Of a stretch of DNA of 41,692 nucleotides, positions 2,561 through 33,201 are shown piece by piece. The notes beneath the pieces were generated by a model that worked only from the letters and a program-made list of their open reading frames with translations, was not told where the DNA came from and ran no database searches. Position 1 is the stretch's first letter. Each line of letters begins with the position of its first letter. The position numbers and the translations under genes are program-made. Source of the stretch: Gemmatimonadota bacterium (GTDB lineage Bacteria; Gemmatimonadota; Gemmatimonadetes; Longimicrobiales; Gaopeijiaceae); contig VXQO01000024.1 of the NCBI GenBank assembly GCA_009838975.1, positions 1-41,692 on the forward strand, in the 5' to 3' direction.

Positions 2561-3043
2561 TCATTCCCCCACCCCCACCTGTTGCGGCAGGGTGGTGAGT
2601 TCGACGATCACGAACTCTCGCGGTCCCACCGGCAGCCGCACCGTCACCTCGTCTCCCTGACGCGCACCGAGCAGCCCCTGCCCGATCGGCGACTCGAGCG
2701 AAATGTGGCCCTTCTCGAGATCGATGTAGTCGCCGGCCACGATGGTGAACGTGCTTTCCGTCCCCACGGCCCGGTCCAGAACGCGAACCTTCGATCCAAA
2801 GCCCACCCGGTCGGTCGGGACATCGTCGATGTCGATCTTGGAGAGCTCCGACATGCGCCATGCCAGGTGTCCGATTCGCGCCTGAACGAACTGCTGGCGT
2901 TCCAGCGCGGATTTGTACTCCGCATTCTCGCGCAGGTCGCCCAGCTCCACCGCCTTCTTGATCCGGTCGGGCAGCTCGATGTTGAGCTCGTGCGTGAGCG
3001 CTTCGACTTCCTCAGATATCCTCGTCTTGATTTCTTCCAGCAT
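2561..3043 (-). CDS. greA: Transcription elongation factor GreA
   Basis: The 160-residue protein matches the usual GreA length of about 158. GreA enters the RNA polymerase secondary channel and stimulates cleavage of backtracked transcripts. Residues 1-75 form the N-terminal coiled coil, with the acidic tip in GDLRENAEY (D36, E39), the residues that place the catalytic magnesium. The C-terminal half is an FKBP-like domain with a PIGQGLLG segment and a DEVTVRLP strand, typical of the family. The ATG at 3043 is the only sensible start. The gene follows purK on the same strand after a 209-base gap. That gap carries the tandem AT-rich inverted repeats at 3134-3174, about 90-130 bases upstream of the start, so greA probably has its own promoter. 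Confidence 0.95.
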   Translation of the reverse strand: MLEEIKTRISEEVEALTHELNIELPDRIKKAVELGDLRENAEYKSALERQQFVQARIGHLAWRMSELSKIDIDDVPTDRVGFGSKVRVLDRAVGTESTFTIVAGDYIDLEKGHISLESPIGQGLLGARQGDEVTVRLPVGPREFVIVELTTLPQQVGVGE

Positions 3044-3133: not shown

Positions 3134-3174
3134 ATGTAATGTATGGTTTACATAATGTAATATTATCTTTACAT
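3134..3174. promoter_or_regulatory. Tandem ATGTAA-N8-TTACAT boxes (site A)
   Basis: Two 20-base inverted repeats, each ATGTAA-N8-TTACAT with perfect 6-base arms, lie at 3134-3153 and 3155-3174. Their starts are 21 bases apart, about two helical turns. The segment is strongly AT-rich in a GC-rich setting and lies in the gap upstream of greA. A paired array like this is what a dimeric transcription factor binding co-operatively would use. The regulator is unknown. Related copies occur at 12859-12899 and 32954-32973. Confidence 0.6.
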
Positions 3175-3252: not shown

Positions 3253-4371
3253 CTACCAGCCGCTCGCCCGGGACAGTTCGCCCTCGCCGGGCAGCAGCGC
3301 CCACACCCGCTCCACGGTACCCATGACCTCCGCCTCGTCGCCGCCGGTGATGTTGACGTGCCCCAGCTTCCGGCCCGAACGGGGCGCCTTGTCGTAGATG
3401 TGCAGGTGGGCGCCGGGTATCCCCGCCAGGGCGCCGAGGTCCGGAAGCTCGCCGATCAGGTTGATCATCGCCGCCGGTCCGGGAACGCGGGGCCTGGCCA
3501 GCGGCATCCCGGTCACAGCGCGGATGTGGTTCTCGAACTGGCTCGTGTCGGCCCCGTCGAGCGTCCAGTGCCCGGAGTTGTGCACGCGCGGCGCGATCTC
3601 GTTGGCGACCAGACGGCCGCCCACCTCGAAGAGCTCGATCGCGAGCACACCGACATACCCGAATCGATCCAGCACCCTGGCCGCCAGGGCCTCGCCTTCG
3701 GACTGCAGCGCCTGCGTGAGCCCCGGCGCCGGCGCGTAGCTCACCGACAGGATCCCACCCCGATGGTGGTTCTCGGTCAGGGGATAGAACGCACGGCTGC
3801 CGTCACGCCCCGCGACCGCGAGCACGCTCAACTCCCGCTCAAAACGGACAAGGCTCTCCGCGATGAGCCCCGATCCCAACCGCACGACCGCCGCCGCCGC
3901 TTCCGCACCCGTCCGCACGACCGCCTGACCCTTGCCGTCGTAGCCGAGCCTGCGCGTCTTGATCACGGCCGGCAACCCGGTCACGGCGAGCGCGGCCTCG
4001 AGGCAATCGACGCTGTCCACAGGGTGGAACGCCGGCGTCGGGATGCCGAGTTCCCGGAACATCGTCTTCTCGGCCATGCGGTCCTGCGCGACCTCCAGCG
4101 CGGCGGGCGGCGGAAGCGCCGGCAGCCGGGCGGCAAGGAACGCCGCGCTGTCGGCTGGAACATTCTCGAACTCGTAGGTGACCACGTCCGCAGCCGCGGC
4201 GATCCGCGCGAGCCCGTCCATATCGTCGTAGGCGGCCGCTACGACCGTACCGAGTCCACCCGCGGGCGGATCGGGGAACGGCTCCAGAATGGCGAAGCGA
4301 TGCCCCAGTGGCATCCCCTCCAGGGCGAGCATGCGGCCGAGCTGCCCGCCGCCGAGGATGCCGACCCTCAC
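3253..4371 (-). CDS. purK: 5-(carboxyamino)imidazole ribonucleotide synthase PurK
   Basis: The 372-residue protein is an ATP-grasp ligase that makes N5-CAIR from AIR, bicarbonate and ATP in purine synthesis. The N-terminus has the nucleotide-fold start [12 protein letters not shown] and the [11 protein letters not shown] segment typical of PurK. The middle contains [12 protein letters not shown], the ATP-grasp glycine loop, and [17 protein letters not shown]-type residues with NSGHWTLDG mark the active site and CAIR-binding region. The start is GTG at 4371; it overlaps the purE stop in a GTGA arrangement, so the pair is translationally coupled. The length and all core motifs look intact. Confidence 0.95.
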
Positions 4372-10636: not shown

Positions 10637-11680
10637 CGAGCGGGCCACGGCGGTCGAGGGCACGTCGGCGAAGATATCGGCGATGTCGGCGGCACCCAGC
10701 CCGTCCAGGCTCCCCCCGAAGAGCACCTTCGACGCCCGCTCGGCCCGGTCCAGGGCATCGGCTCCGTGGACGGTGCGGGTCATCTCGGAGGCCAGGCGCC
10801 GCTGTGCTTCGCGCGCGTGGGGTCGGTCGGCGACGGCTTGGGCGAGTTCGTCGATGGTTGGGCGATCGAGGAGGGTGAACATCTTGAGGTAGCGGATCAC
10901 GTCGCCGTCTTCGGTGTTCAGCCAGAACTGGTAGTAGCGGTAGGGCGAGGTGCGCTCGGGGTCGAGCCAGACGGTGCCTTCCTCGGTCTTGCCGAACTTG
11001 ACGCCGCGGGACGACTCCACGAGCGGGAAGACCACGCCATGGCATCGGGGGCCGCCCATCCGCCTTACCAGGTCGATGCCGGCGGTGATGTTGCCCCACT
11101 GGTCGGAGCCGCCCATCTGCAGGGTGCAGCCGTAGCGGCGGTTCAGCTCCAGGTAGTCGTACGCCTGGAGCAGTTGATAGCTGAATTCGGTGAAGGAGAT
11201 GCCGGAGTCCTCGTCGGCGATGCGGCGGCGGACCGACTCCTTGCGGAGCATGGCGTTCACCGAGAAGTGCTTGCCCGTGTCGCGCAGGAAGTCGACCAGG
11301 CCCAGGTCGCCCAGCCAGTCGAGGTTGTTTGCCATTCGGGCGGGGGCGGTGCGCGACTCGAAGTCGAGGAAGGCCGCGAGCTGCCTGTGGATCCCTTCGG
11401 CGTTCGCCTCGGCCCGGGCCCGGTCGAGGAGCGCTCGCTCGGATGCCTTGCCGGACGGGTCACCGATGAGGCCGGTGCCGCCGCCGACCAGCGCGATGGG
11501 GCAGTGTCCCGCGCGTTGGAGGTGTACGAGTCCCATGATGGGAACGAGCGAGCCGACATGGAGAGACGAGGCGGTGGGATCGAAACCGATGTAGCCGGTC
11601 ACCTTTCCGGCGGCGAGGGCGGTCTGTGCGTGTTCGGTCGCGGCGGCGAGAAGGCCGCGCCAGCGCAGTTCGTCGATCAT
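10415..11680 (-). CDS. tyrS: Tyrosyl-tRNA synthetase
   Basis: The 421-residue class I synthetase charges tRNA-Tyr. HVGS at residues 41-44 is the HIGH-type ATP motif, and KFGKT at 228-232 is the KMSKS-type loop. QMGGSDQWGNITAG (about 188-201) is the tyrosine-binding segment specific to TyrRS. Residues from about 350 form the S4 RNA-binding domain that grips the tRNA (SEARRLIRGGGVYLNGERV). The start overlaps the menE stop in an ATGA arrangement, so tyrS is the last gene of the menaquinone operon. Its 3' 222 bases overlap the convergent GLPGLI-family gene. Confidence 0.96.
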   Translation of the reverse strand: MIDELRWRGLLAAATEHAQTALAAGKVTGYIGFDPTASSLHVGSLVPIMGLVHLQRAGHCPIALVGGGTGLIGDPSGKASERALLDRARAEANAEGIHRQLAAFLDFESRTAPARMANNLDWLGDLGLVDFLRDTGKHFSVNAMLRKESVRRRIADEDSGISFTEFSYQLLQAYDYLELNRRYGCTLQMGGSDQWGNITAGIDLVRRMGGPRCHGVVFPLVESSRGVKFGKTEEGTVWLDPERTSPYRYYQFWLNTEDGDVIRYLKMFTLLDRPTIDELAQAVADRPHAREAQRRLASEMTRTVHGADALDRAERASKVLFGGSLDGLGAADIADIFADVPSTAVARSSLEAGVELAILMADAGMTASRSEARRLIRGGGVYLNGERVTDMGSVVGESDPIEDRFVLVRIGKKRHLVVELG

Positions 11681-13191
11681 GTGGTTCTCCTCGCGTGTGC
11701 GTTCCCGCCGGCCTCGCCGCCGGAATTCGGGCCGCTGCCGGCCGCCGCCGGCCGGGGCACGGTCAGTTCACGTCCATAGCGCTCGCTCACTCGCCACCTC
11801 ATCACCTTCCCCGTCCAGGTTCGGGATAGCGAGTCCACGACCACGATGCGCGACGGACACCTTCCTCGCGCGAGCCGGGCGCGGCAGTGGCGATCGACCG
11901 CCTCCGCGTCGACGACCGCCGGGTCGCCTTCCACCACCGCCGCCACGACTTCGCCCCACTCCTCGTCGGGCACTCCGAAGACGACCGCAGCGGTCACTCC
12001 CGGCATTGTCTCGATCACGCGCTCGACTTCCGAAGGGCTGACGTTCAGCCCCCCGCTCACAATGATCGCGTCGGCGCGCCCATCGATCCAGACGAGGCCG
12101 TCCGGGTCGATGCGGCCGAGGTCGCGGGTTGCGAACCAGCCGTCCGGGTCGGTGGCGAGCGGTTCGGGGTGTGCGCCCGGACCGCGGATTGCAACCGAGG
12201 CCAGGGTGGGGCCGCGGACCTCGAGCGTTCCGGGGGCGGTGGCCGCCACTCTGACTTCGAGGCCGCGCAGGGGACGTCCCGCGGTGCCGGGGTGTCGCCG
12301 GGCCAGGTCGGGGGGCGCGGTGGCGACCTGTGAAGCGGTCTCCGTCATGCCCCAGGTTGTGGCGACGGGGACGCCGGCCGCCCAGGCTTCTTCCAGCAGG
12401 GGCCGTGCGGCGGCCGCGCCGCCGACCAGGACGCAGCGCAGGGTTGCGGGAACGCGCTCGCCGGCAAGCCGGGAGAGGACTCTGCGCAGCATGACCGGCA
12501 CCAAGGCGAGATGAGTGACCTGTCCGTCCAGGACTGCACGCGCCACCGCTCCGGCGTCGAAGGACGGCCAGAGTCGCACGGACGCCCCGGTCATGACCGC
12601 GCGCACGACCAGGGACAACCCGCCGATGTGCCCCGGCGAGAGGCACAGTCCCCAGCGGTCGGTCGCGGTCAGGTCGAGCCGGTTCGCGACCGCCGACGCG
12701 GATGCGGCGAAGGCGTCGCGCGTGAACCCCAGTGCCTTGGGGGCGCCCGACGAGCCTGAGGTGAGGATGCAGGCCACGACGTTCGGGAACGAAGCGAGGC
12801 GGTTGGGGAGCGGGCGGGCAGGGCCAAGCTGGCTCGCGGGGTTGGATTGACTGAGATAATGTAATGTCTGATTGTCAATATGTAATGTTGACATTACAAT
12901 CCGACGTGCGCGGTCGACCTCTGACGGGGTAAGTCGCTCATGCAGCGGGACGGCCACGCACCCCGCCCTCCAAAGGCCGAAGAGGGCGGTTACGGTCTCG
13001 GCGCCCGGGGTTGCGCAGAGGGTAACCGTGTCGCCGGCAGCCGCATCGCATTCGCGCAGGCGGCCCGCCATGGCTGCGACGCGCTCGTCGAGGTCACGGT
13101 AGGTGAGTGACCCTTCGTCCCACACGAGCGCGGTGGCGGAGGGCGTCGCGGCCGCCCGCCGCGCCAGGTCGTCCGAGGGATTGGGCGTCAA
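11677..13191 (-). CDS. menE: o-succinylbenzoate-CoA ligase MenE
   Basis: The 504-residue ANL-superfamily adenylate-forming enzyme activates o-succinylbenzoate to its CoA ester for MenB. The phosphate-binding loop TSGSSGAPK is at 144-152. TTWGMTETASQ is the adenylate motif, and the DGWFATRDLGRIDPDG and GGLNVSPSEVE segments mark the hinge and C-terminal lid, which ends with the lysine-bearing RTWTGKVMRW. The start is a TTG at 13191 that overlaps the menA stop (TTGA), so translation is coupled. Residues 98-112 are encoded by an AT-rich stretch with two 21-base repeats (ACATTACAT) and codons such as TTA, ACA and GTA that are unusual in the rest of the gene. This may be a small insertion in a linker. 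Confidence 0.9.
   Translation of the reverse strand: MTPNPSDDLARRAAATPSATALVWDEGSLTYRDLDERVAAMAGRLRECDAAAGDTVTLCATPGAETVTALFGLWRAGCVAVPLHERLTPSEVDRARRIVMSTLHIDNQTLHYLSQSNPASQLGPARPLPNRLASFPNVVACILTSGSSGAPKALGFTRDAFAASASAVANRLDLTATDRWGLCLSPGHIGGLSLVVRAVMTGASVRLWPSFDAGAVARAVLDGQVTHLALVPVMLRRVLSRLAGERVPATLRCVLVGGAAAARPLLEEAWAAGVPVATTWGMTETASQVATAPPDLARRHPGTAGRPLRGLEVRVAATAPGTLEVRGPTLASVAIRGPGAHPEPLATDPDGWFATRDLGRIDPDGLVWIDGRADAIIVSGGLNVSPSEVERVIETMPGVTAAVVFGVPDEEWGEVVAAVVEGDPAVVDAEAVDRHCRARLARGRCPSRIVVVDSLSRTWTGKVMRWRVSERYGRELTVPRPAAAGSGPNSGGEAGGNAHARRTT
12859..12899. repeat. Tandem ATGTAA-N8-TTACAT-like boxes inside menE (site B)
   Basis: Two boxes begin at 12859 and 12880, again 21 bases apart. 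The second, ATGTAA-TGTTGACA-TTACAA, contains a perfect 18-base palindrome (TGTAATGT-TG-ACATTACA, 12881-12898). The first keeps the ATGTAA arm, but its other arm is TGTCAA. Aligned without gaps, the 41 bases match site A at 30 positions. It lies inside the menE coding sequence and keeps the frame. Confidence 0.55.
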
Positions 13192-32025: not shown

Positions 32026-33201
32026 ATGAGCGGTTGTTCCCCACGAGCATGGGTGTCGGTACTCGTAGTCATCCTGTGCCAGGCGTGTTCCGAGCGCGGT
32101 GGAAACGGCAATGCCGGTCCGCAGCGGGCGACCCTCGGTCCGCCTGATGCCGTCTTCCCGGAGGATTTCGGCTTTGTCCACACGGTGCGCGAGCTTCCGG
32201 GTGGTCACATCCTGGTCCCGGACCCCCTCGGGAAAGCGCTCTACCGGGTGGACATGGACACCGGAGTGCGCACCGTGGCAGGGACGCTGGGCGGGGGGCC
32301 GGAAGAGTACCAGCAGCCTGACGCCGTTTGGCCATTGCCCGGAGATTCGACGCTGTTCGTGGATCTTGGTAACGGCCGTCTGGTGAGACTGGGGCCGAAC
32401 CTCGAGTACGGACAGGCTCACCCCATTGCACGATTGCAGGGCGACGGCGGCTTCGTGATGGCGCTTCCGGCGGGGGTCGACCGGAGCGGGAACGTCTATG
32501 CCGCCGCTTTGGGCGGCTACCCGCCCGACCCCGAAGGGCGCGGCGCGATCCTGCGAATCGGCCTGGCGTCGGGACGGGTTGACACCGCCGGCAGCTACAA
32601 GCTCGGTGAGGTGGAGGTCGACGAATCGGACAACCGGATCAGCATTTCTCCGATTCCGCTGTCTCCTGCCGATTCATGGGGGGTCTCGGTCGACGGGTCG
32701 GTCGTGGTGGCCCGCTCGCTCGGGTACGGCGTGGACTGGCATGCACCGGACGGCTCCGTGACCCGTGGCGATACCGTCGCATATGAGCCCATCCCCATCA
32801 CGACTGCCGAGAAGGACGAGTACTTCCGCGACAGGCGCCGGCAGGCCGGAGTCGGCATAAGCATGACGTCTTCCGCGAACGGACAAACAAGCGCGACCTT
32901 TTCTCGCTCCGGCTTTTCAGATGAACCGGAGTATGACAACTACAGATGGCCAGATGTAAAGCCCGCTTTACATTCCATGACCATTCGTGTCGATCCGCAT
33001 GGCCGTGCGTGGGTGCGGCGTCATGTGCCCGCGGGCCGTAGCACCGCTTACGACCTCTTTGACCGCCAGGGGAATCTCGTGAGTGCCGTCACGCTGGATG
33101 GAGACCGGCGCGTTGTCGGGTTTGGCCGCGGATCAGTGTACATGGTCTCGTTCGACGAGCTGGACCTGGCGTATCTCGAGAAGTACGCACTCCCGGAGTA
33201 G
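32026..33201 (+). CDS. 6-bladed beta-propeller lipoprotein
   Basis: The 391-residue protein has a lipoprotein signal (VLVVILCQAC, cysteine 21) and propeller blades with FVHTVRELPGGHILVPD and LGKALYRVDMDTG motifs. A strong ribosome site (CGGAGAGAGAGGC) lies just upstream of the ATG. It lies 102 bases after the amidohydrolase gene and may be an independent unit or a weakly linked last gene. An AT-rich, near-perfect ATGTAA-N8-TTACAT box (32954-32973) lies inside the coding sequence at about residues 310-316. No catalytic motif is recognised; such proteins are probably surface binding or sensing modules. Confidence 0.78.
   Translation: MSGCSPRAWVSVLVVILCQACSERGGNGNAGPQRATLGPPDAVFPEDFGFVHTVRELPGGHILVPDPLGKALYRVDMDTGVRTVAGTLGGGPEEYQQPDAVWPLPGDSTLFVDLGNGRLVRLGPNLEYGQAHPIARLQGDGGFVMALPAGVDRSGNVYAAALGGYPPDPEGRGAILRIGLASGRVDTAGSYKLGEVEVDESDNRISISPIPLSPADSWGVSVDGSVVVARSLGYGVDWHAPDGSVTRGDTVAYEPIPITTAEKDEYFRDRRRQAGVGISMTSSANGQTSATFSRSGFSDEPEYDNYRWPDVKPALHSMTIRVDPHGRAWVRRHVPAGRSTAYDLFDRQGNLVSAVTLDGDRRVVGFGRGSVYMVSFDELDLAYLEKYALPE
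32954..32973. repeat. Single ATGTAA-N8-TTACAT box inside a propeller gene (site C)
   Basis: A 20-base inverted repeat with perfect nine-base arms (ATGTAAAGC-CC-GCTTTACAT). It has the same arms and spacing as sites A and B. No convincing second box lies 21 bases away: 32933 begins ATGACA, but the opposite arm does not match. Confidence 0.5.

Follow-up and report, generated by a model that had tools for sequence, protein, structure and literature searches.

A tandem 41-bp palindromic unit, probably the operator of an XRE-family repressor heading a modA operon, occurs about 100 times in a Gemmatimonadota genome

Two phased palindromes upstream of greA in a Gemmatimonadota bacterium form one copy of a 41-bp tandem unit. 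Very probably, the unit is an operator at which an XRE-family repressor controls its own gene; that protein carries HTH_3 and PBP_like domains, and its gene comes first in a molybdate-transport (modA) operon. About 100 such units occur in this genome (G000). A profile built from homologous XRE proteins of other phyla finds the regulator in each of the 22 genomes of the genus that carry the sites, a unit lies upstream of the regulator gene in all 22, and modA is the next gene where this was checked. Together, these observations make it most likely that the boxes are operators of a repressor that controls its own gene and probably responds to molybdate. The starting point was a sequence-only reading of one stretch of 41,692 nucleotides (here called the window), which had raised the possibility that a dimeric regulator binds the boxes co-operatively; that proposal is supported, and a probable cognate protein can now be named.

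Results

The boxes at 3134–3153 and 3155–3174 of the window are exact matches to ATGTAA-N8-TTACAT with starts 21 bp apart, just as first described. The complete unit reads TGTMA-N8-TKACA-N3-TGTMA-N8-TKACA, with TGTAA and, less often, TGTCA as half-sites; by position weights, the four arms are conserved to the same degree and the spacers are close to random. Within the window, four single boxes with up to two mismatches were found, against 0.05 expected from shuffles. At the same tolerance, the whole G000 genome contains 196 single boxes versus 13 for the reversed pattern, and 97 and 94 tandem matches on the two strands versus none in the reversed-pattern control. In 760 kb of G000, 50 tandem units exceeded the score threshold, compared to one or two in reversed sequence. 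The 21-bp period seen at greA was exact in 25 of 28 neighboring box pairs less than 400 bp apart in the same 760 kb. A resemblance to GlnR/TnrA operators had also been suggested. Those are single 19-bp boxes (TGTNA-N7-TNACA) bound by MerR-type regulators, whereas the spacer here is 8, the boxes are in 21-bp tandem phase and the linked regulator is of the HTH_3 type, and this assignment is not supported. Literature searches on the operator sequence or on HTH plus PBP_like molybdate regulators yielded nothing useful.

Across 298 genomes of the phylum, tandem matches numbered 8–195 per strand in members of the genus and 0–2 in the others (about 280). Single boxes at one mismatch occurred 26–218 times in 22 of the 23 genus genomes (control, 0–2), and G008 had none. 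Most genomes compared were metagenome-assembled genomes (MAGs), and genes in the relatives were called with a simple codon-usage caller. The sister genus genome G033 has a tandem pair of 22-bp period upstream of its regulator, the only pair listed there by the scan. Among public contigs, the named ones that carry the exact motif come from Gemmatimonadota MAGs, and their isolate names suggest sponge samples. In an unrooted tree of greA and menE, G008 fell near the base beside the long G010 branch. This 94% complete MAG is the only genus genome without both the sites and the regulator described below, so co-loss within the genus is a single case. Since sister genera also possess the regulator, loss of both is the simpler reading.

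Inside the window, the operator upstream of greA (3134–3174) matches the tandem pattern with no mismatch on the minus strand. The downstream gene is greA (2561–3043, minus strand; Pfam GreA_GreB, PF01272 and PF03449, and ortholog comparison), whose ATG lies 91 bp from the end of the predicted operator; on the other side, purK (3253–4371, minus strand; Pfam ATP-grasp and PurK_C) ends 78 bp from it. Ortholog comparison located a site before greA only in G000 and its nearest relatives, G013 and G015, with arms kept and spacers changed, and in no other genus member. The suggestion that the boxes regulate greA is thereby weakened, and greA is at most a lineage-specific target. A second tandem operator (12859–12899) is embedded in the coding sequence of a menE-like AMP-binding ligase gene (11677–13191, minus strand; Pfam AMP-binding) that adjoins a UbiA/menA-like gene. 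Its box at 12880–12899 has one mismatch and that at 12859–12878 is degenerate, but as a tandem unit it deviates at one of 21 specified positions. This copy, whose middle translates as LHIDN, sits at the same codons in about 20 genus genomes and is absent from G008; these orthologues were fetched by protein homology, with the motif not used. A conserved position near orthologous genes thus holds genus-wide for the menE-like copy and only among the three closest relatives for the greA copy. Of the two further occurrences originally claimed, the one at 12859 is a real tandem of imperfect boxes, and the one at 32954 is a lone exact box (32954–32973) in an unassigned ORF (32053–33201) with a degenerate partner half. 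The latter is a doubtful member that may be due to chance or decay.

The candidate regulator emerged from the motif itself. A scan of all public genome contigs for the exact 41-bp sequence pattern returned 12 contigs outside Gemmatimonadota. On eight of them, representing five independent loci, the motif adjoins a gene for a 64–91-amino acid (aa) XRE protein similar to CylR2, either in its operon or divergent from it. Usually the XRE gene shares its operon with one other gene, which encodes a small membrane protein. These homologous XRE genes belong to Actinobacteria, Bdellovibrionota, Balneolota and Firmicutes. Profile A1, made from the eight cross-phylum proteins and searched in 59 relatives, matched one strong homologue (E values 1e-18 to 1e-22) in each of the 22 site-bearing genus genomes; in G008, it gave no match at E ≤ 1e-6. 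The genus regulator has about 370 aa with HTH_3 and PBP_like domains (Pfam; for HTH_3, PF01381, E value 7.5e-12, 45.5 bits at a cut-off of 23). In 22 of 22 genomes, a tandem site with at most two mismatches is located 32–110 bp before its ATG. A sigma70-like TTGACA/TATAAT-like pair with a 16-bp spacer falls within the site at 14 of these 22 regulator loci, versus 3 of 50 other sites. Next after the regulator gene comes modA (TIGR01256, an NCBIfam equivalog, above cut-off) in all four genomes checked (G000, G013, G021 and G017), and modA also follows the homologue in Thermomicrobium roseum.

By profile, the closest solved relatives of the HTH part are CylR2 of Enterococcus faecalis and other XRE repressors (2xiu, 1utx, 9k3w). 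The PBP_like domain resembles the molybdopterin-biosynthesis protein model NF011068 below that model's cut-off; with the operon context, this suggests that the regulator may bind molybdate. An AlphaFold model was poor outside the HTH (pLDDT, 64; pTM, 0.40), and for the C-terminal domain, where periplasmic-binding folds top the list, the predicted structure is too poor for a firm fold. In other genera, the regulator occurs without site expansion, so its presence alone does not account for the copy number. Among plasmid-borne small XRE genes, tandem boxes of period 21 with two or three mismatches were present 65–92 bp upstream at three of ten loci, with weaker or no boxes at the rest; the operator is therefore not shared by all members of the broader XRE family. 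As another candidate for the binding factor, PadR was discarded, with only six PadR matches in the genome. The regulator gene itself occupies the C1:6785–7894 region of G000 (L253:592–1701, minus strand). In several genus genomes, a gene for a GPP34 (Golgi phosphoprotein 3-like) protein lies directly upstream of the regulator (L253:1815–2471, minus strand).

Some copies are carried by a miniature element. A MITE family of 170–250 bp was recognized in G021 (L203:1900–2160, L208, L210, L214 and others) and G010 (L300–L319) from its TIR GCAGYCCGTGGA/TCCACGGRCTGC beside TA in aligned copies, TA/CTAG ends, many copies and the lack of a transposase ORF. The predicted binding site is near its middle. 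About 13 sites in G021 are borne by this element, there 249 bp long, as are about 20 of 49 in G010; L214 of G021 contains three identical 249-bp copies head-to-tail. The site is missing from some shorter copies, in which the direct repeat GCTTCGCT marks the junction, so that either an insertion or a deletion accounts for the difference. In G000, 3 of 50 sites have MITE-like flanks, and the flanks of the other 47 are at random-sequence level. Arm conservation is biased by retrieval in pairs from the 0-mismatch list and in MITE copies selected by their site; our argument for selection uses the menE-like copy, the regulator promoter and MITE copies selected by element body. Among the latter, 27 had flanks reaching the site, of which 23 showed at most three mismatches, none showed four to six and four were site-less. 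Such all-or-none sites, despite 10–20% flank divergence, suggest selection on the arms. The 41-bp unit itself does not qualify as a transposon of the MITE or REP kind: target-site duplications are absent, and direct repeats in 20-bp flanks average 3.93 compared to 3.94 after re-pairing (131 sites). The sequence-only alternative of a small dispersed repeat is hence accurate for the many copies that ride on the MITE in G021 and G010, but not for the unit as such, which lacks these duplications and is fixed in the menE-like gene across the genus.

Placement of the copies does not follow promoters. Coding sequence makes up about 90% of the DNA, yet 44 of 50 G000 sites are intergenic; five are wholly in coding sequence. 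In G000, 12% of regions are convergent and contain 10 of the 41 classifiable sites; in G010, the figures are 16% and 9 of 45. Most copies are not positioned for promoter control, and many cannot be simple promoter operators. A second coding-embedded copy occupies a conserved place in smc of G000, G021 and a third genome (L025:9720–9760, L186:1501–1539 and L067:1502–1540). The genes beside sites displayed no clear shared function. A Mo-hydroxylase (coxM) operon contains a site in more than one genome, and in two genomes a site precedes degP. Six-bladed propeller proteins were not convincing as a theme, at 5 of 82 site-adjacent genes versus 13 of 595 in G000 and 20 of 321 in the G021 background. 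The 0-mismatch list had raised the suspicion of an orientation bias in G010, which was dismissed, as both orientations occur. At L183:1540–1560 and L198:1540–1565 of G021, the operator is directly adjoined by a CRP- or Rex-like palindrome, TGTGAA-N4-TTCACA; L187:1540–1560 has a half-site.

Discussion

Binding, its dimer or tetramer stoichiometry, repression and the ligand are features that we infer from the arrangement of sites and genes. In the model we favor, two HTH dimers would occupy the adjacent palindromes on one helix face, 21 bp being two turns. At the regulator's own gene, the bound dimers would cover the −35/−10 pair and repress the operon. Molybdate or a related Mo ligand could shift the state of the PBP_like domain and thereby end repression; the ligand might either release or recruit the repressor. 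Within the genus, the operator would have multiplied to about 100 positions in each genome, in part through the MITE.

That another factor recognizes the motif, with the XRE regulator merely one of its targets, seems to us very improbable. A site upstream of one gene does mark that gene only as a candidate target. However, the motif adjoins homologous XRE genes in four phyla, was not found through the regulator alone and is missing together with it from G008. We also regard it as unlikely that these are sites of an architectural or chromosome-organizing protein comparable to Noc, SlmA or MatP, a part that the XRE protein, if it binds, would itself play. The number of sites, their mostly intergenic position whatever the gene orientation, including convergent regions, and the copies in menE and smc would suit such a role, as would a mild depletion near parS/ori in the complete G021 genome (mean relative distance 0.59, P = 0.004; P = 0.03 without MITE copies). 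Yet this depletion is weak and stems partly from MITE copies, the unfailing site before the regulator gene is the signature of a repressor, and in other phyla, the XRE homologues that share the site have essentially a single copy of it, at the operon that encodes them.

If the unit is the operator of the autoregulated repressor, its abundance calls for comment: about 100 copies, many off-promoter and some on mobile elements, are unusual for a simple metabolite repressor. The extra sites may serve global regulation, act as decoys or silence the element. A reading with real but less than even prospects makes them passengers of the MITE, most of them functionless remnants of decayed copies or mere decoys titrating the repressor. 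The shares of G021 and G010 sites within one element and the three G000 sites with MITE-like flanks speak for it, and a titrating role fits the site placement. Against it stand the 47 of 50 G000 sites that lack a detectable MITE flank, the element-body-selected copies that are intact or site-less and never half-decayed, and the menE-like copy kept in place genus-wide. Only tentatively, and short of calling it probable, we consider that in this one genus a molybdate repressor has come to bind DNA throughout the genome, with its operator distributed partly via the MITE and selected even in genes and convergent regions, where it would act by means other than occlusion, such as element silencing, titration, road-blocks or chromosome organization.

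Several known systems share parts of this arrangement. The cylR1–cylR2 locus combines genes for a small XRE protein and a small membrane protein (PMC3709268). The loci of other phyla, in which the 41-bp operator lies over operons of this composition, resemble it, whereas the genus regulator differs from CylR2 in that its HTH is fused to a PBP_like domain, its gene stands in a modA operon and its sites number about 100 per genome. The XRE fold is likewise common to the C proteins of restriction–modification systems (C.AhdI, C.BclI and Csp231I C), and C.AhdI was among the PDB profile matches. C proteins are autoregulatory and occupy a pair of tandem palindromes as two dimers that act co-operatively; their motif and period differ from the 41-bp unit, and no restriction–modification genes are found here. 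ModE is comparable in its gene's location in a molybdate-transport operon, a ligand-binding C-terminal part and autoregulation or mod control. It consists of a winged-helix domain and MOP/TOBE domains, and Pfam assigns only HTH_3 and PBP_like to the present regulator, which we therefore did not place in the ModE family. Correia elements and other MITEs are similarly short transposable elements with a site for a host protein, which for Correia elements is IHF. Unlike in that case, the 41-bp site also lies outside the element at most G000 places and is conserved inside genes.

If this reading is correct, 22 species offer a natural example of a regulatory site that has multiplied: sister genera have the single autoregulatory operator, these species have about 100 copies, and a MITE is one carrier that can be seen. 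Such a case would open tests of how transposable elements rewire networks and of whether a repressor's non-promoter sites are decoys or functional. It would also supply a likely operator for a broad family of small XRE and XRE–PBP_like regulators, which usually lack a known site. The exact 41-bp motif was additionally seen in three marine alphaproteobacterial single-cell genomes (L163:5205, L169:2642 and L172:4318), where it occupies a single orthologous position and has no XRE gene in its vicinity. Two IMG/VR contigs (L173:13661–13701 and L174:4779–4819) contain two identical tandem copies of ATGTAAGGTTTACTTTACAT within flanks of the same sequence in both.
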